NCBI GenBank assembly: GCA_034190875.2
Contig: CM067343.1
Location: 31,638,250 to 31,702,249, forward strand
Origin: Urechis unicinctus
Lineage: Eukaryota > Annelida > Polychaeta > Xenopneusta > Urechidae
DNA length: 64,000 bases
Reading direction: 5' to 3'
Shown: one piece after another, positions 1-30,972 of the stretch
Numbering within the stretch: the stretch's first letter is position 1
Layout of the letters: each line of letters starts with the position of its first letter
Program-made: the position numbers and the translations under genes
Notes under the pieces: generated by a model
What the model was told of the DNA's origin: nothing
Database searches by the model: none
What the model saw: only the letters and a program-made list of their open reading frames with translations

Positions 1-76
1 AGAACATATACAATTCATGTAAAGTAATCATTGTGTTTAACAGTGAAACAGTTCTTCGGGCTGAATCAGTACTAAC
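1..76 (+). repeat. Tail of tandem unit U0, left of transposon insertion
   Basis: These bases match 29,448-29,523 in the same direction, with differences such as GTGAAACAG versus ATAAAACAG. The match stops where the 10.7-kb transposon begins and resumes at 10,755. The window therefore opens inside an older unit of the tandem array. Confidence 0.85.
70..76. repeat. Target-site duplication, left (TACTAAC)
   Basis: TACTAAC directly precedes the left terminal inverted repeat and is repeated at 10,755-10,761. The empty homologous site reads TCCATAC. Confidence 0.85.
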
Positions 77-208
77 CACCCGATTCTGAAACCTGCAATG
101 CCAAGTAGCGTGTGCAGGTCTCCAACTGCTTATGCTAATAGACATTGCAGCTGGTCTTATCGTACCATGTGAGATACCTGCATTCGCCAATCAGCGTTGC
201 AGGTCGAA
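77..208 (+). repeat. Left terminal inverted repeat of the 10.7-kb element
   Basis: It starts CACCCGATTCTGAAACC and pairs in reverse with 10,623-10,754 over 132 bases with about three mismatches. Homology stops after GCAGGTCGAA. The repeat holds four CCTGCA/TGCAGG words in alternating orientation. Confidence 0.9.
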
Positions 209-1449
209 ATGCAACCAAAGACATGCAAGACCGGTATAGCGCTACGCCAATATCAGTAATATAATTTTTAAAAATATGGGATGTGGTCAATAATTATTAA
301 TTTATAATTGAATTACGAAACGATTATAGAAAGAGCATTCTGGGATGAATTGGAGTATAATGGATTGATTCAGGCCAACACAAAGTCATTAACTCTTGAT
401 ATACGATTCCCATAACTTAGCTATAAAGTTTTTAGATATTACATGTTTGAATCATATTCAGAAGCTCGTTGCTTAGGTTCTTGGACGGGGATGACGTTAG
501 CCTAGTGAAGTTTCAGTGATGGGTACATTTTTAAAAAGCATCATTGATCCAAACCCCTTCGACTTTTCAGGGCGGTTCGCCGCGGAAGCACCGTTATCGA
601 GCTAGTTTTTATGATCAACAAGCCTGTCGCATATCACGTGTGACGCAATGCAGTGTCTGTTCTAATGGACTGTACGAGTTATAATTCAGAGAATATTCAT
701 GGTATATGACAGGTACCTTACTCACATTGTTTCATATATACTCATTGCGTGTTGGTCTCTTGCATGTAGGTGAAGCCAGAGAAATACACTTTGTATTGAT
801 ATGAGCGATAATATAACAGTGGCTTGATAATTTCAGGCGAGTGCTGTGGCCCGTGTGGGTAAGGACTAGGGGGCGATGGTGTGTGTAGGTCGCAGGCCTA
901 AGCCCCGTTGGATGAGGTTGATTAAGCTTAATGAAAAAATTAGTCCTATATATTTATTGGTTACCGTCACATAATAATGCAGTAATGCTGTGTTGCCACT
1001 TTTATCAGCTGACATTTATTTACTCTTCTTGCTCGAGTACGTTCAAATAAAGCAGGTAGTTGGTAGTGGGATGGTCTCTTCCTCAATCTGCACTAGCAGA
1101 GGGTCAACTGAGGTTGACTCATCAATGGCTTTTGTTCTTTAGTTTGGGTCGACTGGCAATAAATTGGTCACCATATCTGACAAAACTTTCATGGCTAGAA
1201 AACCCTAACAGGATACACATTGTCATTTTACGGTTTGTCAGGTTAGCATTAGCATAATTATACATCCGCGTAGATTTTACCTCATTGCTATATTTAAGGA
1301 CACGTTTTGTGTTTTAATAAAGCAGCGGTATTAAATCTAGCATCGTTATTTATATTATACAACTGATTAATTCATCGTTTTCCAGCAATGTTGTTGCCCT
1401 TTGTTAGAACGTAAAATTCTGACGTTTATTTTTAACAAAGTTAGTATGT
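209..1449. other. Element interior, no recognisable feature
   Basis: AT-rich sequence with stops in all frames. The 65-codon frame at 1,060-1,257 has no recognisable domain. I see nothing else. Confidence 0.6.
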
Positions 1450-2017
1450 CAGGGCACGAAATTGGTTTTAAAAGTATATTCCACGGACTCATTTGTCACA
1501 TTTGTCGTCCGCCAGGCCGATAACTTTTCTGTTACCATGCTCGACGTCAAAAGATAAACATGTTGACAATAGCGCGATTGTTTGAAATTGTGAACTGATC
1601 CAATTGACTTGACCTGAGCTTTTATCCAGAGTACTTCGGTTATTTGTGTATTGACGAAAGCACACGATTATCAATGAATTTGTATAACTCGTTTTTATTG
1701 GTCAGTCTATGTCAAGTGCAAATGAGTGTCAGATGTTCCCGGCATTACAAGTCTCTGATTTGATACTTCACGCAAAATATTTTTCCCAAGTTTAACAACA
1801 ATGGACAAGTTTGTCAAACCTTTACCTGACTGCAACTGTGATGAATTAGAAAAAAGTCCACCTTCACTCAGCTTTTTCACTTCTACTTTCAGCATTGTGA
1901 ATAAAAAGGCCATTGAGAGGACCAGTTAAATACTGGTAGGGCCAGTTCATTTTGTTGAAGGGCCAGTTGAACAAAAAATTGAGGGCCAATTCACATATTT
2001 GCCAATTTCATGCCCTG
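1450..2017. mobile_element. Nested non-autonomous hAT-like element (568 bp)
   Basis: The left end reads CAGGGCACGAAATTGG and the right end is the reverse complement of CAGGGCATGAAATTGG, 15 of 16 bases matching. Both sides are flanked by TATGT (1,445-1,449 and 2,018-2,022). CAGGG termini are typical of hAT elements; the usual hAT duplication is 8 bp, so a 5-bp one is atypical. Near the right end the word GGCCAGTT or a one-base variant occurs four times (about 1,919-1,990), as expected for subterminal transposase-binding repeats. No transposase is present. Confidence 0.7.
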
Positions 2018-2502
2018 TATGTTTAATCGCCGCAGCTTCTTTTTTATATTGCACCGATAATTAAGCTAGCATAGCTGTTAAAATTACACCTTGGAGACCG
2101 GGGAGTTAGGCTACCAGAGTGCTCATTTTAGCATGATTTTTTTTAGTTCCTGATATGGACGTAAGTAAAACAACACTTCGTTAACATCTCCTCATGTTTT
2201 TCAATCAAGTCCTGCTAATTTTTACTAGTCCAATTAAAAAATATGACTAACAAGGAATTTACCGGAATCGCCGATCACCCTGTGAGTCTTGCAATGCAGT
2301 TAGTTTAGCCATTGATGTCGCAAACAGACAATTTAGGTATTCTTTTTTGGTAAACCGAACCCACGTTCCCAGGTATCGCTGATCGATCTTAATATACTTT
2401 GTTTAAAACAGATTTGAATATAAAAAATGACTTGTCCCATTGTACAAGTTAGATGGCAGCTTCACTTGTCCGATGGCTACCCTACTTGCCAGGGACATTC
2501 AG
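2018..2502. other. Element interior, no recognisable feature
   Basis: AT-rich stretch with several ACTTGTCC-like words near 2,430-2,480. It ends in TTGCCAGGGACATTCAG, a plausible splice acceptor for the next exon. Confidence 0.45.
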
Positions 2503-2673
2503 GTGATGGTTAATGTTTCACCCTGTAGCTGTAAGCGATATTGTTGTAATGGTTGCAATCATAAATAGTTGATTGATAGCAGACAGGGAGCACCATATAA
2601 TAACAACACTCACTGCTGGTGCTGTGACAGTACAGATGCACCCTATCTTTGTCCTGATTGCCTGTCTGCAATA
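2503..2673 (+). pseudogene. Cysteine-cluster exon remnant (CxC-like), one in-frame stop
   Basis: After the acceptor-like ATTCAG at 2,497-2,502, one frame encodes two cysteine groups: PCSCKRYCCNGCNH (C-x-C-x4-CC-x2-C), then a TAG stop, then HCWCCDSTDAPYLCPDC (C-x-CC-x8-C-x2-C). Clusters of this kind precede KDZ transposase domains ('CxC' clusters, probably metal-binding). The next likely exon of the same element (3,097-3,209) also looks KDZ-like, which supports the reading. The in-frame TAG and the TGA at 2,674 show decay or a wrongly guessed exon end. A different zinc-binding domain is possible. Confidence 0.5.
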
Positions 2674-2815
2674 TGATTCATGGCGCATTGAACACCCATT
2701 CATGAGTGGCAGGTATGGCTCCACTGCTGTATGTATTATTAATGAAGAAATAACTATTGCCGACAGTTACTTATGGTCCTTTTTGTATTGTGTTACTCTA
2801 TTCAGGGCGACCATT

Positions 2816-2898
2816 TTATCACTGCTGATCTCCCGGGTTCGAAGCAAATCAAGGATCCTCATGAATCCCCGGACGCACCATCATCTTTACTAATATTT
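2816..2898 (+). pseudogene. Possible small exon of the transposon gene
   Basis: A pyrimidine-rich TTACTCTATTCAG precedes an 83-base stretch that ends at GTAAGTT, a consensus donor. One frame is fully open (GDHFITADLPGSKQ...), rich in Asp, Pro and Ser, with no domain I recognise. It lies between the cysteine-cluster exon and the GFWPLTP exon on the same strand, so it may be an exon of the same gene. Only the splice-site grammar supports it. Confidence 0.35.
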
Positions 2899-3096
2899 AA
2901 GTAAGTTAACCGAAATAAGCCAAGCACCTAACCATTGCTTTCTTTCACACATTGATTGAACCTGACACAGCAAAAATGCATATGAATGGTTCATCGATTT
3001 GATATAAATATTATGGTAATACAATAAAAATGGTTAAAAATGTTAAGTATAAAAACATGCATATCTTATAAGTCTCTCTATTTGTGCATATTACAG

Positions 3097-3209
3097 CTAT
3101 GCAGGGTGCATCCACTCAGGTGTTGCAGCATGGAAGAGAGGGACCTCACAAATCTTTTGAGGAATGGCTTCTGGCCACTGACCCCTAACAAGCCAGGAGT
3201 TATAGCAAG
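3097..3209 (+). pseudogene. KDZ-transposase-like exon with GFWPLTP motif
   Basis: The exon follows GTGCATATTACAG and ends before GTAGCT. Its open frame contains CCSMEERDLTNLLRNGFWP and continues LTPNKPGVIAR. In KDZ/Zisupton proteins a short stretch of the form 'L...G(F/W)(F/W)PATP..P.TAF' follows the cysteine cluster, and this matches it well. That is recognition from memory, not a database hit. The two other frames have stops. No following exon with the conserved core region could be found, so the gene appears incomplete. Confidence 0.5.
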
Positions 3210-3513
3210 GTAGCTTGACCAACTGCAGTGCCTATCACTTGAGGCACAGATTTAAGTGCAGGCATTTGTCACTTCCACTGATATACACACATCCTTAAAG
3301 TTGGGCAAGGTAATTTGTGGTATATCTTAAAAATTGATTAACGAATGAGATAAGATTTGTGTGATCAATTCATATTTCCCTTTGTGTAACAAAAGGAATC
3401 TTTCACTCTGTTCCGTATCAGTCGCAGTGGAAAGATTCTTGAGTATCCACAACAAGTCAAGGTCCCCTAGCCTGAAGCCTGTGGGCGCTGTTTACATGTT
3501 ACTGATATTCAAT

Positions 3514-3553
3514 AGTCTCTAGGGCGAGAAGCGTAGCGGAACCCCTAGAGTCT
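3514..3553. repeat. Small foldback
   Basis: AGTCTCTAGGG at 3,514-3,524 pairs with CCCCTAGAGTCT ending at 3,553 across a short GC-rich loop. It may be the core of a short interspersed foldback element. No target duplication was identified. Confidence 0.35.
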
Positions 3554-4585
3554 GGGACGCAGACTAATCCACATCTGTGGCAGGAGATGAGGGCTGCCCC
3601 AATATCACTTTCATTGCCTGTTTCTTGGCTTATTGAATTTCCAGTCTGGGCTGCTAGACTCAGATGATGCAGACACAACCCTGAGGATTACACCTAAGCT
3701 CACCATGTATGTAACTATCATAAACAGTTTTTTTTTAGCTCTTCTGTTCAGCAGAGTTTACTAAGTACCTGTCTGTTTGTAAACTTTTGATGGCACAAAT
3801 TACACAAAGACCCACCTGTGACAATTGTACCCTGCAGACTAAAAATCTGCCCTGCATGACCTTCGCCGAGTTATTTATGAAAAAAAAAATTATGAATTAG
3901 TGTTTAACCCTGGTGTGTCATTAAATACTTTATCAAACCATAATAGTGATTAATTGTCCTCTAGTCATTACTTTAAATTGAAATTCATGCCAAAAGATGA
4001 AGAGATCCAAGGTATATTGACCTCTCAATTGAATGTTTTATATCTAGTTGTATTTTTTGCAAACAATGTCAGAAATGTATTTGATTACAGGTTTGACAAG
4101 AAGCTGACTGAAATTGGCAAGTAACATCAAGGTTGTTTGTTCTCTCTTCACTATGCAACCAAGGTCTACAGAACAAGGCTCGACAACCACCTTCAAGCTG
4201 TTGCAACATCTTGCACATTCTTTTTCAATTATCTCCATATTTTTGCACTCTTGTCAGCATGTCTGAAATAAAATAACCTGATATTATGAACTTTCTCATT
4301 TAGTGTTGATTTATGCATGGCTATCAAGCTTAAGGACTTATTGTGCCATCAATAATATCAATACAGTACCATGAAGATATTAACCGATGAATACACTAAA
4401 ATACATAGGGGAATGATGAATTATTCCACCTCAAGCTATGTGAACATTGACTAGAATAGCTCTGGCATTTGTGCTGGGTCTGCAAGTAAAATAACAAGAA
4501 TATCATAGCGTTTTGAGCTACAATATGGAAAATTTCTAACGTGAATTTATATGCTTTATAATTAAATCAATCGAATTTGACAGTG

Positions 4586-4621
4586 AAATAGAGGTCAGTC
4601 GATAGAGCACTCGCTAGAGCG
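4586..4621 (+). repeat. tRNA-like fragment, possible SINE head
   Basis: The words GTCAGTCGATAGAGCACTCG resemble the D-arm and A-box of a tRNA or tRNA-derived SINE. No B-box (GGTTCGANNCC) lies at the expected distance, so at most this is a degenerate 5' fragment. Confidence 0.25.
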
Positions 4622-6597
4622 TCCACATCGCTTTGCTAACGGAACTATTAGACACCGGATATATCAGGCTACAAAGTGATGCCGTTATTATCCCGTGCGA
4701 CCCCATGTTGCGCCCCGCAAAGATGCGAAAACCCCCACACTGGACCCAACAACATGAATAACTTTATTTTATGAGGCTACATAATGATGTCGTCATAATC
4801 AGCGATGTGACGTCACACTTGTTAGTCCTTTACATGTAAGATTTATATCAGTCTTATTCGTGGTCGTCGATATATAATCAAAGATAGTTCTAGTAGTATA
4901 TTTAAAATAACCCCCGGACATAACTATGTGCTACAGAAGAAGCACAAATGCGAGTGAAGACCATAGTCAATGATTAGATTGACGCGGTTCCGTTGACGTC
5001 ATGGACACGTTGGTTCTTATCGAAAATTAAATCGTGTTCCCTGACACGCGGCCAGATATAACTCTATATTTTAAATATATCTTGCAAACAGACCTGATGA
5101 ACGACCCTGACTAAACTTATACATCCCAGGTGGCGACAAATATTAACCTTTGCAAATTCACCACATGCGATTCCTGGTATTGTCGATACCATAGCTCATG
5201 TCCTTCCCCAGGCTGAGACGCTTAGCAAATCATGTTAAGTTGCTATAATTTCGCCAATAGCTAACTACTAATTCTATCCCAAAGTCTATGACAATATACT
5301 TGATGTAAATTGTAACATATATTCATCTTCGCTTTTATATTTTACCTTAAAGGGTTTTCATTGCTAGCTTTGCAACACGTGAGTCATAAGGGGGATGGCA
5401 ATTGCTTATGCACGATAAATCGGCAGATTCACGCCACCTCTTATCAGTTATTTTGGGATCAAAGGGAGTGGCGTTTATACCCCGGTAAAACTCACATTAA
5501 CGGATCAGCTGTCCACGGCAGAGCAGGAAACCATGGAGTGCATAACTTTACAACACTTTCGGAGTCCGCCACTGTACCCCAACTTAAATCCATATTAAAT
5601 ATTCGAGCTGCCTAAGATAACTTATGGTTTTAACAGGATAGATCCGACACAACTAGATTTTATATGATAGATGAGTATATCATATGGATGGCTTTTTGAT
5701 AAAATAACATTTTACTGCTAATCTGAAAACGCTTCATTTATCTCACATGCTACACCTTACCCTGATTAAACTAACTACCATAGTTAAATGTTTAGGATTT
5801 CTTGTCGGGGATAGAGAATATTCTGGCGTTATTATTAAAGTGACCGACAAGTGAACACAGGCTCCGATGTATAACAATCATTCCAAGAGTTAAATTTTAA
5901 CGCAGTATGTGTAGAATTATATGCTGGTATTTTTTCCAGAGATTAATTGCATAGTATCTTATATTGCCCTGCTTTGTATATTTGGACCATCATTAGGGTA
6001 TTCTATCATATGGGTGAACGAGACAATCTTGATTGAAATCTATTACGTCCACCTATAGCGAGTAGACTATTAATATCATGGTAACAGTTACCAGATTCAA
6101 ATATAATTTGCAGTCCATCGGCGAAATCACCACATACCTAGATCTGATTATTTGCTCTATGTGTAGTGCTTGTTTCACTGGATTATCGAATGTCGTGTAT
6201 TGCAGGGTGGCGATAAAAAATGTGGATAAAGTGCCTATATATGACTGTAATTGACGGGGCCATCACAGAGCCTGATATATTCAGATAGGGTGATCTCAGC
6301 GGCCTGGATCAGAGGTGTATGTTGAGCACGTGGCATGACTTGACATGTTGACTGCGCAGCAAGCGTCCTAACACCCCGACAAGCGGGTACTTTCAACTGT
6401 CTAGAAGTGGTGTGTTTCGTCAACATTAAGCATATTACATTGTTTAGTCCATGTTAAAGCGATACAAACTGGGTGCCCGAAATCTAAAGTACATCTTAGT
6501 ATAATAGATATTTTGCGGCCAGGTCTATTTCCTATCTTTTTAAATATGGTAATTTGTATAAGAATAGTATTTCAATATATATTTTTTGTATCATACC

Positions 6598-6835
6598 CAG
6601 CAAACACATAACGTTCCGCCAACGTTACTGTTAGTCACAGAATGTTGTTGCAACACAGATAGCACTACAACACTGGGCCAACACTGGCTTAACTGCTGGC
6701 ACCAAGTCGGCATACCAACATAGGCCCACCGTAGTCTTATCCGGCAGACCAATGTAGGCTTGCTAATGTTTTGTCAACGTTGGCAAGCCTACCTAGTCCC
6801 AGACCTAGTGTTCCAACGATTAGGTGGACATGGTT
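6598..6835. repeat. ACGTT-rich interspersed foldback repeat
   Basis: Starts near CCAGCAAACACATAACGTT and is rich in CCAACGTT, CCAACACTGG and CCAACATAGG words. It contains a perfect 10-bp stem, GTAGGCTTGC (6,754-6,763) with GCAAGCCTAC (6,783-6,792). The composition is clearly different from its surroundings. This suggests an inserted MITE-like sequence, but end repeats and a target duplication were not found. Confidence 0.45.
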
Positions 6836-6902
6836 GAACTGATTTAGTTGTAGTTTCCATGTGTATAAATAAATAACAACCAGATCTCAGAAAAACATCT
6901 AC

Positions 6903-6908
6903 TTTATT
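6903..6908 (-). promoter_or_regulatory. AATAAA polyadenylation signal, minus strand
   Basis: AATAAA on the minus strand lies 13 bases downstream of the stop codon of the putative terminal exon at 6,922-6,975. Confidence 0.4.
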
Positions 6909-6921
6909 TAGTGTCATATTT

Positions 6922-6975
6922 TTATTCTGAACCAGAATCTGAGTTCTCGCTGTAATTGCTTGGAGTCAAGTTTCG
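6922..6975 (-). pseudogene. Putative terminal exon of antisense gene (acidic Ser-rich tail)
   Basis: On the minus strand ATGTTTTACAG is followed by an open frame RNLTPSNYSENSDSGSE and a TAA stop, then AATAAA. The composition fits a disordered acidic C-terminus. It lies downstream, in the minus direction, of the DUF4806-like exons at 7,238-7,497, so it may be the last exon of that gene. The reading phase does not join cleanly to the donor at the end of the 7,238-7,329 exon, so the link is uncertain. Confidence 0.35.
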
Positions 6976-7206
6976 CTGTAAAACATAAGTACAAAATTGT
7001 GAGCTAAATAATGTAGAAAACATACAGAACAATGTGTTTTTCACTGAATCATCATATTGGAGAGAAGCCTAGACACTTATATGCTGGCTCGTTTCCTTTC
7101 ACCCACCCATCCGCACCACAAACCCACACACACACATACAAACAATCAAACAAAATTTGAAGCCTCCGACAGAAATATGGTGGTTACAGTTTACTATCTA
7201 CTGACA

Positions 7207-7240
7207 AAAATTCTTTTTTTCTTCTTCTTCTTCTTTTTTA
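7207..7240 (+). repeat. Short pyrimidine (CTT) microsatellite
   Basis: T-rich run with CTT repeats. On the minus strand it is the GAA-rich sequence directly after the DUF4806-like frame. Confidence 0.8.
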
Positions 7241-7329
7241 CCCTCCATTCCTGTCACTAGCTACCAAAAGCCATTTGTTGATGCATTCCTCAACATCTGC
7301 CTCCTTAATTGACAGCATTTTAGCCACAT
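7238..7329 (-). pseudogene. DUF4806-like C-terminal exon
   Basis: Minus-strand frame VAKMLSIKEADVEECINK continuing WLLVASDRNGG, then TAA (or splicing at GG|GTAAAA). It follows the acceptor-like TAATCAG. The pattern 'eve..I..WL..A.dR' is the end of the DUF4806 domain found in many animal genes of uncertain, partly transposon-linked, function. The preceding minus-strand frame at 7,402-7,497 carries the earlier part of the same domain. The match is from memory of the family. The function of the domain is not known to me. Confidence 0.5.
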
Positions 7330-7401
7330 CTGATTAAACATTTTATGCAGGTTATTGATAATTTATGGCAACTGAATATTATCATTAATCTACTAACCCT
7401 A

Positions 7402-7497
7402 CACAGCGCTGACAAGACCTTTTCTTGCCCAGTTGGAAGATCTGGCCAAGCTGTTACTCAGTAGTGAAAGGAGCATTTTCTCCACTGTATCTTTCAC
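7402..7497 (-). pseudogene. DUF4806-like N-terminal segment
   Basis: Minus-strand frame VKDTVEKMLLSLLSNSLARS followed by SNWARKGLVSAV and a TAG stop. The pattern 'l...L...la...NW.g.g' matches the middle of DUF4806 and lies just upstream of the exon with the domain's end (7,238-7,329). The frame is closed by a TGA just before it, and no donor gives an entirely convincing join to the next exon (AAAG|GTCTTG is in phase but weak). The gene is probably broken. Confidence 0.45.
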
Positions 7498-8319
7498 CCC
7501 AAATCAATGCAGGGAGCATAAATGAGTAACCTAAACACACACAACAACAATCAGACATTTTCCTGCTATGCTGTTAGTAATACACTCATGACAGTATCTA
7601 GCTATATGGGTTTTGTAATTGAAAACACCTACATGAAATAAATATTGATTGAATATTGACTCTAAGGTAATGTCCTGTGTGATTTAATATTGGGGTGCTA
7701 GTAGAATCAATGGGCTAGTTTACCTAGCTTATTCAATTGATAATAATGTAATATCAAGTATTATATTAATATCTGTTCAGAAGCATACACAAGAACTGAA
7801 ACGAACCGCTAAGATAAAAGGAATAAGGGTAAACACATCTTTAACAAGGCATATTGTTAGTGAAGCACCATACCTATTTGAAAATTACTGTCAAGAGTAA
7901 CTTAGTGTCATTAGTATTTATGTCGTTTTATTTACCTGCATTGTACTTTTTTAATTAAGATATGCTATGTTGAATGGTCTGTCGGTAAGTGCATTAGCTG
8001 AAACAATAGGGACACTGCGCAAATGTCCAAGGTGGAAGCTGGCAAGGTGCAAGCATTAGAAATGCCTTCTGGGGTTGTCTGTTAGCGACCAGGCAGTTAC
8101 AACCTGATTGAACTGGAAGCTGTTCTGTCCCACAGGAAAGACAAAGTTTGAGGGTACATACAACAATGTTCCAGACTGAACACTATTATTATATATTGAA
8201 TTATAGAAAAGATATGCAGCTATAGTAACTGATACCAATATCATTGAAAACAATAAGAGCACATATCATAGTCAGTCAGAACATCATACATATTGATGAT
8301 TAAATCACCACTGTTTCAG
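7498..8319. other. Element interior, no recognisable feature
   Basis: AT-rich sequence without a recognisable domain. The minus-strand frame at 8,056-8,262 starts with a hydrophobic run but is not supported by splice sites or homology that I can see. Confidence 0.5.
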
Positions 8320-8544
8320 TGGTCACCGACAAGATCCAGTGTAGGTCCACATTGGAAATAATTCCCTCCCATGAATGAGGTCCAGCCAACTGTTGACATG
8401 GAAACAAATGCTGTAGATGCTGTGAAGGACAAAAGCAAGGATACAAACACATGGGAACCATATTCCTTTGTCAAGGGAATTTTGGGGCAGGCGAATATTC
8501 TGTCGAGAGTGTGTGAAAAGCATAAAAAACTTATAGAGAGATAA
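8320..8544 (+). pseudogene. Chromodomain exon, copy 1 (N-terminal part deleted)
   Basis: Follows the acceptor CACTGTTTCAG and aligns with the exon at 8,682-9,024. From 8,371 a 57-codon frame starts MNEVQPTVDMETNAVD and ends DTNTWEPYSFVKGILG...KHKKLIER and stop. NTWEP is the conserved end of the chromodomain first part, followed by the C-terminal helix. The preceding YEVEDIL...KWLGY portion, present in copy 2, is missing. Chromodomains bind methylated histone tails and in mobile elements can direct insertion to heterochromatin. A stop upstream of 8,371 in this frame shows further decay. Confidence 0.6.
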
Positions 8545-8681
8545 TCAATCATTATTTTGGATATGTGGATCTTTAATGTCAACTCAGTTGAATTTAATAA
8601 TGTTATCAGTAGCATATGTTTCTTTTGAAATGTTATCGTCATTGATAATGGATAACTATGTTTGATTAAACACTGTTTCAG

Positions 8682-9024
8682 TGGTCACCAACAACTTTGA
8701 AGGTGCAGTGGAGGTCCACTTTGGAAATGACTCAATGAATGAGGTAGAGCCAAGTTTCGACGACCACAATAAGGTAATGGAAACAGTAGATTCTGTGGAG
8801 GACACCAGTACAGGTACAGTGGAAGGTGTTTGAAGAGAGTATTGAAAGAAAGGAGATATGAAGTGGAAGACATATTGAAACGGATGAAACGAGGACGAGG
8901 GTGGAGCTATTTAATAAAGTGGTTGGGGTATGACAAAACCACATGTGCACTATATTCTTTTGTTAAGGGAATTTTAGGGTCAGGTGAATATTCTGTCGGG
9001 AGAGTGAACATCACAAAAACCTAG
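8682..9024 (+). pseudogene. Chromodomain exon, copy 2 (frameshifted)
   Basis: After CACTGTTTCAG a frame is open from 8,682 to the TGA at 8,831 (VVTNNFEGAVEVHFGND...). A shift of one base near 8,824-8,832 opens the next frame, encoding YEVEDILKRMKRGRGW followed by SYLIKWLGYDKTT: a clear chromodomain start with the aromatic Y and W positions. The NTWEP of copy 1 is replaced by TCALYS, and an extra base after ILG shifts the C-terminal helix out of frame. It lies near the right end of the 10.7-kb element on the same strand as the KDZ-like exons and may be the end of that protein or a separate gene. Confidence 0.65.
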
Positions 9025-9188
9025 TTGTATATAATAATTTAATCAGCAGCATGTGTGTTATGAAACTATTCCAGCTATAAGCCCTTAATTATCGGCTGAC
9101 AAGAGACCGTGGACCAATGGCGTGGGCTGTTCAAGGGCCTCGGGGGAATACAACGACCGGGAGCACTATATAATCAGCCCGCTCATAT

Positions 9189-9486
9189 ACCCGGGGGGGG
9201 GGGGGGGGGGCACTTGGCCTTATTCTGAATAGGTGTGTGACGCGGGACCTAAAAAACCTGTACCCGTGGAACAAGGTCAAAATGGCCAAAAGCATACCCC
9301 GTCGTACAAGGTATTATGCGAATGTATAACCCTCCGAACAGATTTGAAGCTGAAAAAATTAACCCTGTTGTACAAGTATGAGACCAAAATAACCCGTTGT
9401 ACAAGTTGAGAGGCCGAAAAAACATACCCCGTCTCGCGGCACATATATACTACCTCTATACATTTAAGTGCCCCGCCCCCCCGGGT
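9189..9486. mobile_element. Nested 298-bp MITE with G-run termini
   Basis: The left end is ACCCG followed by an 18-base G run (9,193-9,210) and CACTT. The right end is the reverse complement, AAGTGCCCCGCCCCCCCGGGT. Both sides are flanked by CATAT (9,184-9,188 and 9,487-9,491). Inside, a word like ACCC(G/T)T(C/T)GTACAAG recurs about three times at irregular spacing (9,299-9,406). No coding capacity. It is inserted within the 10.7-kb element and is therefore younger. Confidence 0.75.
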
Positions 9487-9491
9487 CATAT

Positions 9492-10622
9492 CATTTCAAA
9501 ATTTATCTACGGCTATGCTTCACACACCAATATTTATGTTGATATTATGATATTAAACACTAGTTTCAAACTCACTCACTCGCGTACATTAAACACTCGT
9601 GTTGTTTTATTAATGCAGCGCCTGACCACTTCAAGTTACCGAACTAAATATTTCACGTCAATCGCTTTATCTGTTTATTATCGCCCATATCAAGTCACAA
9701 TGTTCAGACAAAACTCGCTGTAAATTATTAACAATGCTACCGATAAATTGACACTTGATCCCTTTGGATCGAGGAGATATCGCATATCATCTCCAATAAT
9801 GCTTTCATCCGCAAAACAAAATCACTTCAACAATTCGACAGCCTAAACTCTCCCATGTTCATGATGTTGTTGTTGGTTATTCAGATTTGAGTGGTTTCGG
9901 CAGCTTTTGCCATGTACCACCTAAATTCTTTCAACACCAGAGACGGTATATATGTCTGGGCGTCGTGTTTATAATATGACTGCGGAGACGTGTGATTGGC
10001 CTATAGAGGGGATTCCATGCCAGGATTCCATGACGTTGCCAAAAATGTCGCCTTTTTCTGCAGATACCCATTAAGACCTGTTACGGATAAGGAGCCAGTC
10101 GGATCGATTTTGTAATGAATAAGATGTATGGAAAACATGGATGGAAAAACAATGTTTATCCCTGGGAAACTACACAGCCAAATGTATATGACAGAAATCT
10201 GTCCCAAAAATCACTCCCGCTTGTACACCGGCAATACGTCACAAGATGTAGAATGTTAACGAACCCTCGAGTAAGGCTATTTAGGTTAAACATTGGCAAT
10301 TTATTAATGACCGATGTCCGAATTTCAGTATTAAACCGAAAAATTTGCTAGATGAGTTCACCGCGTATAAATAGTAACACCGATCATAAAGACAAGGATC
10401 ATTTAAAAGATTTATCCGGGGCCAAAATTAAAGTTTGAAGTAAAACATGAATAAAGTTGTAAAATGTGGCAACTAAAATACCAGATTTCATGCTTGCGTT
10501 TTCCATGATCGCAAAACGATTATCGAGGTTAACGAGATGGAGATCACGAGTGTCATTCGCTAGGTGGCGATACTCACGCTGCATCCAATCTCGCAGTTCA
10601 CCGCTCGCGTCACGAGATCTCG
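9492..10622. other. Element interior, no recognisable feature
   Basis: Right-hand interior of the transposon. The frames at 10,115-10,351 (plus) and 10,399-10,686 (minus, overlapping the terminal repeat) have no domain I recognise. Confidence 0.5.
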
Positions 10623-10754
10623 TTCCACCTGCAACGCTGGTTGGCGAATGCAGGTATCTCACATGGTACGATAAGACCAGCTGCAATGTCTATTAGCATA
10701 AGCAGTTGGAGACCTGCACACGCTACTTGGCATTGCAGGTTTCAAAATCGGGTG
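10623..10754 (-). repeat. Right terminal inverted repeat of the 10.7-kb element
   Basis: Reverse complement of 77-208 with about three differences. It ends AATCGGGTG, immediately followed by TACTAAC. Confidence 0.9.
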
Positions 10755-10761
10755 TACTAAC
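10755..10761. repeat. Target-site duplication, right (TACTAAC)
   Basis: Identical to 70-76. The sequence then continues ACTGTACTCCTGG, matching GCTGTACTCCTGG at the uninterrupted site at 29,524-29,536. Confidence 0.85.
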
Positions 10762-11402: not shown

Positions 11403-11796
11403 AACGTATTTGCAAACAGGCCTGGTTACCTAGTCATTCACCTTTAGAATACAAGACGTACTTATATACCACTTTTTTATAGCTCCCTTATTTGGCAGCA
11501 AGAACAAATTAAATTTCCATTTGTTGTTAACCGACATTATTTAAAAGAGTAACACATGTAACAATACTGTTGCAATCTGCGGTATTTTGTCAAATAGAAT
11601 GAATTAAATATTAAATTGAACTAACTCAGTTAACGGCTTTCGCCCCGATTGAATCATATGCATGTAAGTTTATTGGTATTTGTAATGCACATAGTCTGGA
11701 ATGCGCATAACCAAGTCTGATTGGGTTGCAATATATTGTTTTGACCGAACAGATATGTTAACCAGGTTCGTTCAGAGTGACAAATATCTTGGCACA

Positions 11797-12060
11797 TTAA
11801 GAAGAAGACGAAGAATAGAAAGAAAAAGAAGAAGCAGAAGAAGAAGAAGAAGAAGAAGAAGAAGAAGAAGAAGAAGAAGAAGAAGAAGAAGAAGAAGGAG
11901 AAGAAGAAGAAGAAGATGAAGAAGAAGAAGAAGAAGAAGAAGAAGAAGAAGAAGAAGAAGAAGAAGAAAAAGAAGAAGAAGAAGAAGAAGAAGAAGAAGA
12001 AGAAGAAGAAGAAGAAGAAGAAGAAGAAGAAGAAGAAGAAGAAAAAGAAGAAGAAGACGA
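11797..12060 (+). repeat. GAA trinucleotide tract (~260 bp)
   Basis: Nearly pure AAG/GAA purine run with a few interruptions. The U2 counterpart at about 47,906-47,995 is short and degenerate, so the run expanded in U1. Such purine tracts can form triplex structures. Confidence 0.95.
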
Positions 12061-14592
12061 AGTACTAGAATAAAGGAAGACGACGATAGGGATCACACAG
12101 CATACCCAGGCATTATCTCTAGCATTGTTTCATGTCAACATTCTTAGGTAGAATATTACGCTGCTCGTGTTGAATCCTGATACCATTACAATTATATTGG
12201 TGGCAAAATTTTTACAGAAGCTCTTTTGATACGAATTGCAGAGTGATACCCCATTCAATGTCACATTGAATGAATAAACCGGAATCCACACCAAGCTGTC
12301 TTTTACATGCATCGTGATCCTTTTCCACAAGGATTTAAAACCAGAACGGTTATTACCTCTAAGATACTTTGCTGTCCAAAACGGCGCAAAGTAATTGTAT
12401 CTAAGAATTTGACGGTAATTTTGTATTGTCATTGGCGATGCCAGTTCTTTATACTTCTCGCTCTTGATGGATATATTTTTTTCACAGATCACGATGAGGG
12501 AGGTGACAATGCGCAACGGTTATAGCCATACCTGCATGGCCTGGAGACAATAGTAGTAATGCACATTGTAGCACAACACCCGTTGATGTGTCTGTGCCGA
12601 GATACAATCGGCCAGATCATCATTGACGCAGAACCTTCATACACTTCACGCCCAAAAGTATGAAGCAAATGGCTGCATTGTTACAAGCTGATGTATTAGA
12701 TGAAAACATCTCGGAATGCCCAGATATATCCCCATTAACCTGTGAAGGTGTTACCTTACATAACCCAGATAGTGCCTATTTAGATCCGCTTCTCTAATGT
12801 CCGGCTGCTAAATACTGTCCTCACAATTCCCATAGGTTATTTTTCAAGGATACGACGAGATTTTAGCAGGTTTTTTTAACCTTTATTTAAATTTGTCTCT
12901 GTGAATGAAATTCCAATGAATCCCAAAATAAAATTTTTTGTTTTGTGATGATGCTCGTTGTGATGCCCGTTTTAGCCCTGAGGTGAGCAAAGACAATTGT
13001 TTGCAAAAAATGCTTTTTGATCGAAATCCAAGTCTCGACAAATGAAGAATGGCAGATCCATTCTATCAGTTTGTATAAAGACTGGCAAGCACCATCAACC
13101 ATATATATAGATATATAAATATGGATTAACTATGATGGGTAACTGTTCGATCGTGACAAAGTTTAGATACCATTGTAGCTTTACTCTGTAGCAACTGTTT
13201 AAGTCTTGCAATATTTTCATTATTCCATGCGTCTCCGGTCAAAAAATTATACCACACTTTTGCAGAATATTCCAATTGCTAATAAAATCGGTACTTTTCG
13301 TCTGACAGTAATAACAATGTTTATATTTACTGTTCCATTTACGCCTTTATAATTGACACTATTCAATAGTTTTCTCATAGCACAATGGCGTCACAAAACG
13401 TGAAGAAAGGGATAAAAAATGAATCCTTTGGAAATATAGCTCGAGAGTCTGGCGACACGATCCAGCGTCTTGCCAACTCGGCCTAGACCACATCTAACGC
13501 TAGCTGCAGTGTACAAAGAGAACAAGAAATGAATCATAAACAATGGATAAAGCTGTGAACTTATGTGATGGAAGACATCCCCGCTGACTCAGTAAAATAG
13601 TCATTACTCACTGCCATACATATCTAATCGCGTGTGCGTGCTACCGGCACGTGCAGGTAATTGTCTTCTGAATTTGATAGGTCAATCCATCGATAAGCCA
13701 TTGTGCCTTCCAATAAAACTACAACTAACATCAGAGAAAAGTAATAAATAGCTTCTGATGTTTGAGGTCTTCAAAACGATGATGAATCTATCCGGACATT
13801 GAAAACAATATAGTAAGGAAAAGCCAATAGGTCATACGCGTGGCTAATGTGAAGGCGCACAAGATCAAATTGCAATTAAATGGACTGAATAGTACAATAG
13901 GAAGAGAAATAGAACCATCCTTATTGTAATAAAAGGGGTGTTAGACCCTGTGTATGCTTCAAATGCTTTAACATGCATCATGCGACATCATTATGTTACA
14001 CTGAGAAACAGATTGAAACGATGCTGAGTGGCTGCAAATGAGTATGGCGCTATTGGCGCATGGTGAATACAGCACGCGTTCAACCTATGATAAATAATAC
14101 ATTTGGTCGCTTAAACAGAAATGATTTGCAGACCGCAGCATCTGGCGATGCGTTTTATAGTCAATTGTCCTTCATCGCAGACGCCGCATGGTATCTTGTT
14201 AAATCTAATCCCGATTAGAAAGGAAGCTATGGAGGCATTAAATTACCTGAGTAGCTGTTTGACAAAGCGGCAAAAACTGTAGCTTTCTGTAGGAAAATTC
14301 CTGCAAAACTGGGGCTGACAATAATCCTTTAAGCATCACGCTTTTGTCTGGATTGGCAACGAAATAAAATGCATTCCAGCCCGTCATCAATGGCTTTGCG
14401 TGACACAATAATGTTTAAATAATATTGGATGCTCGTCTTGTTTTGTCTTAAGCTTGATTATTGCCACTGATATTATCAATCATTTCATTCATTGTTCATA
14501 GTTTTTTAGAATAGCTAAGAAATAAAGCAGTCATTATCAAATAAAATATGGCTATTGACAAAACTGTTTTAATGAATAAAATGGGAATGTTT
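12061..14592. other. U1 unique sequence, no gene seen
   Basis: Collinear with U2 48,000-50,410. The minus-strand frame 12,130-12,516 (128 codons) shares GFKSLWKRITMHVKD with U2, but the frame is broken there (two pieces at 47,886-48,312), so I do not call a gene. Confidence 0.5.
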
Positions 14593-14709: not shown

Positions 14710-17700
14710 GCCATTGAAATAGTTATTCAATTAGCTAATCACTGACGGGAAACATGCTCTGTAGCATCAGGTAGATTGTCGCTAAAACTTCCCTGAGTGC
14801 TGCAGACGATGCGTTTTATTAAATACATACGTCACATTAGAAATGTTCAAAACTGGTTAAGTGAGGCATGCAAAGCAATGTGTCATACGTGGAGAAGTGT
14901 ATGCGGTATAAACGTGGTACAGGAAGTGTCATCAATAAAGCGTCTGTCACTCCACTAATTATTTCCGGACCCTGAGCTCGCTTATAACATAGTCTAGAAT
15001 TGGTGCCAATATGATTGATTACGTATCCCGTCAAGCACATTGGCCTGGATATCAATCATTGTCACAAAACTATAATCGCGTGTTAGTGGTGCGGTGTTAG
15101 ATCCCGTAGGCAGTGAAAATGTTGTGTTGAATTAATTGCTTAGATCTCTACATAGTGTCTTGTTATATGACCACAACCAGCACCAGACATCCTTTATGAT
15201 CAGCAACAATATACGATAAGAGGGCTTCATATTCATACAAAAGTAATTACAATATTGCTATGGTTTTAATTTTAATCCTGCGGTCTATAACAGAACACAA
15301 TGTGCATGACACATCATTGTTATATCTGATTGCTCTATCCTGGCGGCCGTTTAGGATTACTAATAACGGTTGTCTTTGAGCATCATGTCATTCATTCTGG
15401 CACGTCATTGTGAGTTTCTGTTAACGGATGTCCTACAACGTCCTCTCTTTTCCTGTAACACTGTAGACACCTAACACATGATAAATCTTGCTGTAAGTCG
15501 TTGACGTATTATTATGCTGAAACCTCATCTGGCGACATGTTTAAACAGTCTGTATTAGATGGCAACCAATTTATGATAAACATACAATCGGCGTAGCTGC
15601 TAAGCTGGGTAACTCTGCATAATATGTTTTGTGTCGATTTAAAATACGTTTTTGTTTAAGAGGATATGGATCAGTTTGTGTGTTGCGCTGATATTATATG
15701 GTTGACATAATTAGTACGAACCAATCTTAACAACACAATCCTATGTGCACCTAAGTCGTAAATGCAAATATCCAAGCAGTAAAAAGATTTACCTTACTAA
15801 ATAATTATATAAACCATTGGTTTCATTCAGAAGAACAACATCCTTTCTGTCACTGACGACCATAAAAGTCGTCATCTCATGGTTAAGTGTATACAAACAA
15901 GCTTAAGAGCTTTGAGATGGACATTTGCAGTAGCACATATATATAATATTATTTTCATGCAAAGAGTGATGGCCATATCGCCGATTGAGCGGGGATTAGT
16001 CATTTATCATATTAGCATCAAGCGGTAACCGTGGAATTGATCAGCTTCAAAAAACCTACGCTCGTTAATATTGCGATAAATTTATGATTGAAACACAGTT
16101 AAACCTTGTTGGTTAAGCGCTTTACCGCATTCATGTTGCAACTTTTGACCACCTAGCACCATTAACTTAAACATAATACGTTGCCAATTATTCTATTTAG
16201 GCCAAGTCGTGCAGTAAGTCACTCGAAAGCAACGTTAAGGCGTCTATGGCGTCTGCATTTAGATATCCACATGGAAGAAGCTTCCCTGTATAGAACATGT
16301 TTTACTCATTGTAGTCCAAAATTGAATATACAATTCAATGCACACAGCAGCGAAATAAAAGATGCAAATAGAAACTGAGAATATGTCAAAGTCAAATAGC
16401 GACTCTCCATTTCGTATGCGGCCATAGTGGAGCTGTGTGTCTCCATGTGCTCTTAGACGCTATCATTATTTATCGAGGACTTTATTAACTTGCTTATACC
16501 TCAAGAATAAAAGAAACCCGCCCCGTGACAAATGCCATGAATGATTTGGTAAAATTGATAAGTCAAACCAGAGCCCTGTATTATTTATTCATATTGCTTC
16601 ATGCTAGGCAGTGCTGGATGTGCGCATGGCTGGCATTGATCCCTAGCGTCACATGCGTAATAAATAGTGGGCCCAATCTTTTATCACGAATGGCGTAATT
16701 AACATATCAATTACCATTTTCCCGTCTCTGGCACTCGAAAACGAGCCAATTTATCAACGCATGCTCTGAAACGAGGAGTAATATTATTTGTTTTCCAGAC
16801 GTCGGATTTCCATTCTTTGGTCATTTACATTTGTGATGAACACCGCGACGGTGATAACCACTCAGACGTAGGAGTGGTGACTGGCTAGATTTTCCCATCG
16901 ATTATCATATGCGCTGAAATATGTATTCGTTATACATAAACTGAGATACGATGAACTAATCATTTGAGATCAATCATATTCAGAATGCAAGAACATTATA
17001 CGGATTGTGAACGCTGATTAAAATTTGAGGTGAGATAGTGTTTTATATTGAAACGTCTTTTTTACACATCTTTTGGCTTTACCGGTTTGATTGTCACAAA
17101 AATTGCATTACATCATAAAGCACAACAAACACATGTTCGCTTAAAATCGTCTATACATTCTGATTGCAAACAAAGTGTTCATTGTCAAGACTGCAGTCAT
17201 ATATTCGCTATTAAGGCTTTGCTTATACCTTGCTATTATTGAAGCCATTCCTAAGAAAATGTCTGTACCTATCTCCTACAATGATAGATGAGGCAGATGA
17301 AGAAGCATTCCTTATTTCAACAAACGAGCCAATCGCGCATGTGATGTCGGGACCACCACAATAATGCAGTTATCAGTTTGCTCCTGATGTTATTAAGCCT
17401 CAGCAATACACTCCTTGCTAAAACTGAATTATTGCACGGAGAGTATGGTCGACATAAACGAATGGAGTCTGCATTTGAGGCTTACACAAATTAACCGTGA
17501 ACTGTATATCAGGATTATTCATCAAGATCTCGGCTAAGTTCACAATGTTTGAAACAACAATACGCTTTTTCACCATATGGAATAGTTTATCAACCACGAT
17601 AGTTTGAGCCAATTCAAAGGACACTTTTTCAAAACTCGATAAGTATTTTAAGGACAAATGTCCAAACTGTTTGGCCAATTATTGGTCAATTGTTTGTAAC

Positions 17701-28227: not shown

Positions 28228-30972
28228 ACGTAGACCCATATATAGCTGCTGTATTCCTCAAACAAAGCCTAATAGAGTACCCTTAAAGACCCCCATGCTG
28301 CTACCATTAGCAGCAATGTATTAATGTTTAATGACACATTAACTTAGACACCTAAGCTACAGGAACGTCTAGCTATTTGGGGAAATATTGCTATTTTAAG
28401 TCGGCGATCGTCTAACCAAGGCATGGATACTGACTTTAAAAAAGAGCAATGTTCCGGAGAGACAAATCAGTGTCAGTGATTACGCAAGTATATTCACATT
28501 ATAAGTAGGCGCGTGGACATGTTGCGCGTGCACATCGATCGCATCATGCCGTATTTCCACAGAGTACCTAGGAAGGCGAGTTCATTACTGTTCATATTAA
28601 CAGTGGGACTGCATAACAAATGTCACTGTTAATACATACTGCGTTGTGCAATATTGTAGAAATGAACATAACAATCAGCTGCTTGTAGTTCTTTTGTTCC
28701 TCACCTGATATATATTGCTTAAATCATTCACGCTTAGCATGAGGTGCGTGATTTGCCAACAGTTATGATGCAGTTTTTATCTGATTACGTTACAATGGGA
28801 CTAACACAGTGTCATGTAAAACATTATACCAACTGTCCTCAAAATTACCACAAACGTACCAACGGGTCGACATACATACTGCCTGCAGCCTAATGCACCT
28901 ATAAACAAAAGTCATGACTACCACTGCGCCATTACCCAATACCATGTATTGTTCGCGTGGATCCGCTGTAAATGACGATAGCAAGACTTGCTGCATCATC
29001 GCTCAAACAACAAGTTAACAAAATTTCAATGTCGGAAGCGTCTAATAAAAGTAAAATGCAAGAGCTGTCCTTATCATGTCACATTTGGATGCTGCTGCCA
29101 GACGAAGAAAACTAGTGCAATTAACTCCTTCAATGGCTGGTAGCAAGGGAAGTTGGCATTATATTTAATCAATTTATCAAAGCACGACGATACGCCATCC
29201 ATCTTTAAGACATACTGTACAGCGCCAACGTTGTGAATGCATTCGTGAATTGTATTGCCGGAAGCAGCATTTCACAGTGACGGTCGGTGAGTTAATAAAT
29301 ACTCTTGACGATCGTATAAAATCGTATATGTGTGGTTTTCAGATCTGGTCGTGTCTTGGTTGATGCAAATATCGGCGCACATTTGATGGACGGCCCTGGC
29401 ATCGCCATTACCTTGCCTTTGTTGAGTATCAATAATCCATGTGTTCGAGAACATATACAATCCACGTAAGGAAATGATTGTGTTTAACAATAAAACAGTT
29501 CTTTGGACTGAGTCAGTCCATACGCTGTACTCCTGGAAGTTTAAAGAGGCAGTCATTATTATTGCAATTGTATTAGAATCACCATGTTATATCTTCCCAT
29601 CTTGAAAACATGTACAATCATCTGTGGCGTATATGTCTATTCGTTTGCGACAGTGTGTGTTTATTTCAACCCAGTTATACGTAAAAAGAATCTGCTACAC
29701 TAACTTCCCATGAGATTAGCTTGTAAACCACCATTAATAGCTTTCTTCAAATGCCGCTGGCTCGTTAAGGCTAAAATAGGATTGTGGGATGCCATTATTG
29801 GGTTATGTGTGCGAACGAAATGTCTATTTAAGTGACATTCATTAGTCAAGGCCACAAATGCAATTTTGAATGTCGGTGTTAGAATGCCAACACTATTGTT
29901 TTGGTCGATGGTGCCTCATTTATCTGGCCATAAAATTCTTAACAGCACAGCGAAAAACTACACGACAGTTGAAGAATGATATGAGAAAAAGGGATTGTCC
30001 CATATTTAGCAGTTTGATTATATGAGGGTGCCACGTAAGCAAGGCACGGATTGGACGCTTAGAGCAAGTGCCTAAGCCACATTATGAAAACATAAATGGA
30101 CCTAGGGAGTATGGAAACATTTGCATCAATCATTTGACTCCGCAGGGTAAGTGATCTTGACACAGAAAACAAAACACCAACTAAGAGTCTTAGGTGGAAG
30201 AATCATTTTGTAACTTGCCATGCTTGATCAAAATCTACGACTACCATGGCGGACGCTAATGAATCAAACGTAGAATTATCTCAAAGCCTATTGAATTATT
30301 CCGGCATTCACATTCATGTGAAACTGTAATGAATCCAATTGTGAGTTCCCCAAATCCCTTCACCGCTTTGTTACCTATGATACTAGAGAAATAAGCACTG
30401 GTTGCCAGTTCATTGCAGTAATTTTATAATTACGTTATAAAAACATATTATCATAATTAAAGTAATATAAGACACTTTAAAGTCTATATCCAAATACTTG
30501 TCAGGGACGGTTTATTACCTTGCTCAATGTGCACACAATAACTTGTTTGTGTGATCCATCTTCAACCTTATACCTAACTACTATTAGCACAGACAAAACC
30601 CTTAAATTAACGGATGTTAACCTGGACAATTAGTGAGCTCCGTTGTCGCAGTGCACATGTTACATAAGTTGCCTAACTCCGTGTCAATGCTTGTTGACGA
30701 ATAGATCAACTGTTGATGCAGAACACAACTTACTCGTAACGCCCGCGTGTTTCTATTGTGCTCCTGTCGGTATTAAATATTGATAACAGTTCATTTGTCA
30801 AGATTATATACAGGCTAGTACTGATGCCTTTAGTAATCCGTTTATGAAGTAAAATTGTTGTAATCTTAACCTTCCTAAGAAGGCCGTTGAGCAGGCGTAC
30901 CTAGTGTCTATGATTATACATTGAGTGTAGCAAATGACAGTAGTCACCAACAAAAAACAGTTGAATTTATGC

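Follow-up and report, generated by a model that had tools for sequence, protein, structure and literature searches.

A probably chimeric, non-autonomous KDZ transposon of Urechis unicinctus that joins the ends of one KDZ family to the body of another

The 64,000-nucleotide stretch of the Urechis unicinctus genome analysed here (assembly GCA_034190875.2, contig CM067343.1, forward-strand positions 31,638,250 to 31,702,249; hereafter the window) contains at positions 77-10754 a transposon flanked by a 7-bp target-site duplication. It is likely, in our view, one copy of a young, non-autonomous, chimeric transposon of the KDZ type: its ends are those of one KDZ family of the same genome (C-type), its body is that of another (A-type), the KDZ exons have been lost, and movement is probably driven by the C-type. 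What carries this reading is a set of direct observations, namely precise ends, 7-bp duplications, homology of both ends and body, joints common to the copies, and KDZ-bearing partners with the same ends.

The insertion itself is defined to the base, as an earlier sequence-only reading had proposed from 132-bp inverted ends and a 7-bp duplication: the two terminal inverted repeats (TIRs), 132 bp each, differ at 3 positions, and the termini read CACCC...GGGTG. Each TIR contains two palindromic modules, and outside these modules each half of the motif occurs once in the element.

70..76, no strand: left copy of the target-site duplication TACTAAC (7 bp, direct)
77..208, + strand: left TIR, 132 bp, beginning CACCCGATT
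91..119, + strand: palindromic module ACCTGCA-N15-TGCAGGT in the left TIR, with another at 176-204
10627-10655 and 10712-10740: mirrored ACCTGCA-N15-TGCAGGT modules in the right TIR
10623..10754, - strand: right TIR, 132 bp, ending AATCGGGTG
10755..10761, no strand: right copy of the target-site duplication TACTAAC (7 bp, direct)
29448..29879, + strand: paralogous uninterrupted site; second copy at 37978-38409

When the flanks are joined with one TACTAAC kept, they align through the joint to both uninterrupted sites at 75.1% identity. The same reading had described these as the element's own empty sites; uninterrupted homologous sequence is indeed present, but as one diverged paralogous site. 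The two lie 8530 bp apart in successive copies of a tandem unit of about 8.53 kb (99.6% identical over 8519 columns), and they therefore constitute one paralogous witness, not two independent ones. The 7-mer at these sites is TCCATAC, which agrees with TACTAAC at 4 of 7 letters, and in a third tandem unit the site's left half is missing.

Further copies were sought with the left TIR in the 1.19-Gb host genome. This search gave 348 first-look candidates, on which all copy numbers rest; the 40 best were scored, and each of them is 100% identical over 132 bp, in a listing that is biased towards perfect ends and gives no measure of the full spread. Twenty of these loci were retrieved as 9.9-kb stretches that start at the left end and run inward, some with N bases (100 in L014, 7795 in L025, 6043 in L026). 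In all 20, the first block that aligns to the window element spans at least 511 bp and is 94.6-99.1% identical to it. Six of them (L010, L011, L012, L015, L017 and L028) track the element to its position 9394 or further, interrupted by no more than a single deletion of about 300 bp and, in L012, a short insert; the other 14 show internal deletions, interruptions or break-offs, or their stretch ends earlier. The right end could be located in three of the 20 stretches (L013, L016, L023), and all three stop at the same base, each beside its own 7-bp duplication (GTGGATA, CCCATTT and TGGTACA, respectively), so that together with the window copy 4 of 4 family members with both ends read carry a 7-bp duplication. 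Substitutions between copies have a median of 1.53% (range 0.13-2.26%; 136 pairs with at least 1500 shared bases), the least diverged pair being neighbours within one array. No frame of at least 150 amino acids (aa) is present in the six near-full-length loci; inside element sequence the other 14 hold two (one of 213 aa in L013, in antisense orientation across the second-gene region, and one of 154 aa in L023), which we take as chance. A selection signal from codon-position substitution rates among the copies was also considered and rejected: the high-ratio windows are scattered, their phase shifts and no control was run.

Several copies have a history of their own. At L017/L018 (C10:74483580-74507363) the element appears to have inserted into itself at element position 4617, and its left 4.6-kb part forms head-to-tail repeats, with four left ends at a spacing of about 4.6 kb. 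Polymerase-B-like frames occur in 4 of the 20 retrieved stretches (L013, L016, L019, L024); Pfam DNA_pol_B_2 confirmed those of L016 and L019 and found nothing in L013 and L024, and in L016 the copy's right end and the end of the frame overlap. At about 770-5380 of L022 lies a nested transposon with DDE_Tnp_4 and HTH_Tnp_4 domains.

The ends of the element are held in common with C-type KDZ elements. In element coordinates, 1-1196 corresponds to window 77..1272 and 9989-10678 to window 10065..10754.

77..1272, + strand: left end common to C-type KDZ elements, 93% identical to C11:41118128 onward
10065..10754, + strand: right end common to C-type KDZ elements (element 9989-10678), 93%

The best example, at C11:41118128-41135609 (locus L030), is a 17.5-kb element that carries the left 1196 bp of the window element at 93%, in two blocks (element 1-776 and 767-1196) each at that value. 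Its TIRs are 97.7% identical to those of the window on either side (the left over 128 bp), and the subterminal parts 92-93%. A six-frame Pfam scan of the C11 element matches KDZ (PF18758) at E 7.1e-26 (91.7 bits, cut-off 26.6), together with the cysteine-cluster profiles CxC1 (1.6e-4) and CxC2 (4.6e-4), both under the curated cut-off. On the strand opposite KDZ it holds a GTF2I-like repeat (7.7e-10, over the cut-off) and a weak EAD4 match (E 0.31, under the cut-off).

Genome-wide, 150 of 160 KDZ candidates were scored, and among these PF18758 has 82 exon-level matches (best 2.3e-13). With the C-type TIR as query, for which the best 40 of 353 candidates were scored, end pairs surround KDZ exons on C11 (17.5 kb), C3 (17.0 kb), C8 (13.7 kb) and C5 (17.8 kb); a further pair on C16 spans 9.1 kb and has no KDZ match. 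Single C-type ends lie near KDZ on C3, C14 (twice) and C13, which brings KDZ exons inside or within 10 kb of C-type ends to eight places (C11, C3 twice, C8, C5, C14 twice and C13). Three of the five pairs have duplications: ACTTGAT on C11, CCAGTAG on C8 and GTTCGGT on C5. Judged from these comparisons, the window family was probably moved by a C-type transposase.

The body of the element points to another partner. An A-type element lies within C1:1704500-1724300 (L029, L060 and L061 combined); it measures 16,954 bp, has 88-bp TIRs (96.6% identical) and is flanked on both sides by TAAAAAG, that is 7 bp in the one A-type element of one. Its ends open with CACCCGAT like those of the window element and differ beyond that. 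Its Pfam matches include KDZ at 2.8e-12 and 2e-9, and CxC1 at 0.0071.

1355..10019, + strand: body matching the A-type KDZ element (element 1279-9943), in interrupted, mostly colinear blocks of 69-90% identity
3642..3648, no strand: joint (element 3566-3572); the A-type sequence missing here, about 1.97 kb long, includes the KDZ exons

The match extends from element 1279 (A-type 2435) to element 9943 (A-type 18003), with cross-matches of a tandem copy at element 8220-8437 and 8582-8943. At the KDZ joint it skips from A-type 4326 to 6298, and the KDZ matches at 4588-5609 fall in the gap; a short imperfect repeat (CAG.CTG) flanks the joint on both sides. All 14 aligned segments that reach this joint, from 13 of the 20 loci, cross it with 0 inserted bases, and the other 7 loci do not cover it. 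The left junction between C-like and A-like sequence is crossed by 17 segments from 15 of the 20 loci and the right one by three segments from three loci; the two kinds of sequence are 82 bp apart at the left junction and 45 bp apart at the right one. A repeat at window 9200-9482 (element 9124-9406) is also found inverted in the C-type left subterminal part (91%) and near the A-type right end (84%); being common to both, it could seed recombination. Separately, at G000:C1:1077792-1080357, A-type-like KDZ exons occur three times at a spacing of 1088 bp.

The coding content that is left in the window element consists of relics, which were found with A-type exons as queries.

2611..2733, + strand: relic of the A-type cysteine-cluster (CxC) exon, E 1.9e-9, with stops
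3124..3318, + strand: relic of the next KDZ-gene exon, 'GFWPLTPNKPG' (LLRNGFWPLTPNKPG...), E 8e-28, 72% identity, with stops
8026..8142, + strand: relic of a GTF2I-like (TFII-I repeat) exon of a second gene, E 7.8e-17 to the A-type exon
8297..8531, + strand: diverged partial tandem copy of the second-gene exon region, holding TWEPYSFVKGIL; self-match 73-81%
8666..9021, + strand: second-gene exon with a chromodomain, E 1.6e-45 to the A-type exon, in two frames that switch between 8830 and 8845

The cysteine cluster and the chromodomain of the sequence-only reading are both present as relics, and its assignment to the KDZ type stands as kinship, through the CxC relic (E 1.9e-9) and the GFWPLTPNKPG relic (8e-28), but the window copy encodes no KDZ transposase. 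Pfam detects no KDZ domain (PF18758) in the six frames of 220-10219, no open frame exceeds 122 aa, and KDZ exon queries from both partners returned nothing in three cases of four and a 12-residue match (E 0.26) in the fourth. The element is therefore non-autonomous, and the epithet 'complete' fails in the coding sense; it looks dependent on KDZ and does not encode it. On raw window frames Pfam reports only Chromo (1.3e-4) and DUF3487 (3.8e-3), on the same residues and both under the cut-off. An HMG-like stretch of the A-type element (13781-14083), spotted by eye, has no counterpart that we could find in the window element. The antisense DUF4806-like gene was not borne out: PF16064 is unmatched in the window frames at E 5, and the relic at 8026-8142 is GTF2I-like and on the + strand. 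A genome search with PF16064 at E 0.01 also gave 0 matches, although its control was silent too, which leaves absence unproved; the 14 named control genomes gave 0 matches for KDZ, GTF2I and DUF4806 alike.

The second gene deserves attention in its own right. The TFII-I repeat is best known from vertebrate transcription factors. Here a genome search with its profile, PF02946, gives 20 matches at E 0.01. For 10 of them (one each on C10, C11 and C13, two each on C5 and C14, three on C3) a listed KDZ exon is found 6.3-8.2 kb away, encoded on the other strand in convergent orientation. Simple arithmetic, with 82 independent KDZ places of ±10 kb making up about 0.14% of the genome, gives about 0.03 of 20 expected by chance. 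One of the remaining exons lies between the C16 ends, and the other nine are more than 10 kb from any KDZ exon listed. Seventeen of the 20 were read and grouped by eye on their translations, 7 of the 17 being aligned; they fall into a C-type group (10), a group belonging to KDZ elements at C5:36576760 (5) and an A-type-like group (2). All 17 resemble element-borne exons, while position ties only 11 of the 20 to an element, and no TFII-I host gene was recognised among the 17 read. A third group of KDZ elements, at C5:36569132-36578070, C3:35332897 and C10:74202849, has its own group of opposite-strand GTF2I-like exons; in the A-type the GTF2I-like and chromodomain exons, which may or may not form a separate gene, share the strand of KDZ.

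Comparison with proteins of known structure agrees with these assignments. The C-type GTF2I-like exon matches TFII-I repeats in the PDB at 7e-6 (10 of the 11 sequences listed are of the TFII-I family), and a seven-sequence profile of such exons reaches 1.3e-9 at best (10 of the 12 listed). By PF02946 the C-type exon scores 7.7e-10, over the cut-off, and the A-type exon 1.4e-4, under it. The predicted structure of the GTF2I-like exon is of low confidence (mean predicted local distance difference test 46.4, predicted template modelling score 0.27). For the A-type chromodomain exon the closest PDB matches are chromodomain proteins (1.5e-5), with a Pfam score of 1.2e-4, under the cut-off. No report of a GTF2I-like gene in KDZ elements was found among the papers listed or in the text read, most subscription journals lying outside the literature searched; hAT transposons misannotated as GTF2IRD2 are, from the accessible part of the source, a separate matter (PMC10641963). 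One could go further and propose that KDZ transposons are a home of the TFII-I (GTF2I) repeat, that in some of them a second gene bearing the DNA-binding repeat, and sometimes a chromodomain, serves as a dedicated transposition partner, and that the vertebrate TFII-I family (GTF2I, GTF2IRD1 and GTF2IRD2) acquired its repeats from such a transposon gene, a proposal that we regard as improbable.

How might such an element have arisen? We consider it likely that its ends (1-1196 and 9989-10678, with the 132-bp TIRs) derive from the C-type family and its body (1279-9943) from the A-type family without the A-type 88-bp TIRs, and that the catalytic KDZ exons of that body were lost at the joint common to every retrieved copy covering it. 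The founder was probably a broken C-type element repaired by copying from an A-type template, with additional internal deletions by end-joining. A C-type KDZ transposase would then recognise the C-type ends, excise the element and reinsert it with a 7-bp duplication, its sites possibly being the ACCTGCA-N15-TGCAGGT modules, two per TIR, and the product of the GTF2I-like/chromodomain gene may act as a helper in binding or targeting DNA.

A number of observations weigh against this scenario. Outside the TIRs the C-type ends are 7-8% off the window family; because this far exceeds the divergence among family copies, the direct source is not among the C-type copies seen. Two of the five C-type pairs, on C3 and C16, lack a duplication, and on C16 the right end is GGGTA. 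Within the body, element 9410-9534 and a 41-bp block at 8538 match the A-type out of order, element 6558-7536 has no A-type match, and A-type 7117-9140, 11730-14250 and 15876-17331 have no clear in-order counterpart. Not all segments across the left joint are clean (one of two in L024 has 18 gaps at 88%, one of two in L018 has 3 gaps). Finally, with the best 40 of 348-353 TIR candidates scored, an autonomous element that combines C-like ends with this body may have been missed.

The last point leads to the most serious alternative, that the element is simply an internally deleted form of some third autonomous KDZ family, so far unseen, with C-like ends and an A-like body, in which case the recombinant would be that older family. 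The body is just 69-90% A-type-like and the ends 93% C-type-like, and therefore neither an A-type nor a C-type copy is the direct parent; the TIR candidates scored (the best 40 of 348 and the best 40 of 353) also leave room for such a family. Against it, the ends listed, which make up a minor fraction of the candidates, come within 10 kb of KDZ at the eight C-type places alone; and of the two A-type loci that were read, L029 has its own TIRs and L031 has no C-type end in the 4.7 kb read upstream of KDZ. We consider this explanation unlikely, if still the best of the alternatives. That the element is an unrelated large non-autonomous transposon with captured host genes, resembling KDZ by chance, would fit its lack of a KDZ domain and of any long frame, but ends and body both match KDZ-bearing elements at the DNA level over kilobases, which makes this very improbable. 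Least probable of all is a Polinton-like or virus-like element, for which the large size, the chromodomain relic and the DNA_pol_B_2 frames beside L016 and L019 might speak, but the matched part of the L016 frame lies past the element's right end and the L019 frame past a breakpoint, and ends, 7-bp duplication and partners fit KDZ.

Taken as a chimeric KDZ element, the window copy can be set beside known systems. Ds elements of the Ac/Ds system contain other sequence between ends that the partner's transposase can use. The same applies to Pack-TIR elements, as the accessible part of PMC8277862 describes them. What lies between the ends here, unlike in Ds and Pack-TIR elements, is the body of another transposon from the same superfamily. 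The partners share with KDZ (Kyakuja-Dileera-Zisupton) DNA transposons the Pfam KDZ domain, apparently many exons, TIRs and a 7-bp duplication, the CxC matches being under the cut-off. Fungal Kyakuja elements are reported to have 7-bp duplications and CA..TG termini, which recalls the CACCC...GGGTG termini and 7 bp of the window family and its partners (C3 and C16 excepted), but to have no TIRs, in contrast to the 132-bp and 88-bp TIRs found here, and Zisupton elements differ by their reported 8-bp target duplications; a GTF2I-like second gene and swapped ends are absent from the KDZ description in the same source, as far as its accessible text goes (PMC12730594). The giant KDZ elements of Ectocarpus and Chlamydomonas, in the accessible part of their description, likewise exceed 10 kb, carry additional genes, often have a pseudogenised transposase and show nested insertions fixed among copies, whereas the window family has lost its KDZ exons by deletion and a single genome holds relatives of both its donors (PMC12477816). 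Zisupton-like elements of Pristionchus also have TIRs and KDZ genes (of 18 to 31 exons) but, in the portion available, no target duplication was detected, unlike the 7 bp at most end pairs read here (PMC9297572). Dada was tried and set aside as a misfit: it has 6-7-bp duplications and is described, in the accessible text, without TIRs and as inserting in small RNA genes (PMC3706591).

The rest of the window adds some context. The 8.53-kb unit is repeated in tandem over 22504-47138, and a six-frame domain scan of one unit gave only a SpoIIIAH-like match (E 0.083, under the cut-off). An Rfam scan of the window found nothing at gathering scores, and a long GAA-type simple repeat lies near the element, at 11797-12129.

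If our reading is right, the Urechis element provides a base-level case of a DNA transposon that has swapped its ends, and so probably its driving transposase, through recombination involving two families from a single superfamily; both donors have relatives in the chimera's own genome. The link between the TFII-I repeat and mobile KDZ elements, in turn, opens the origin of that domain to testing.

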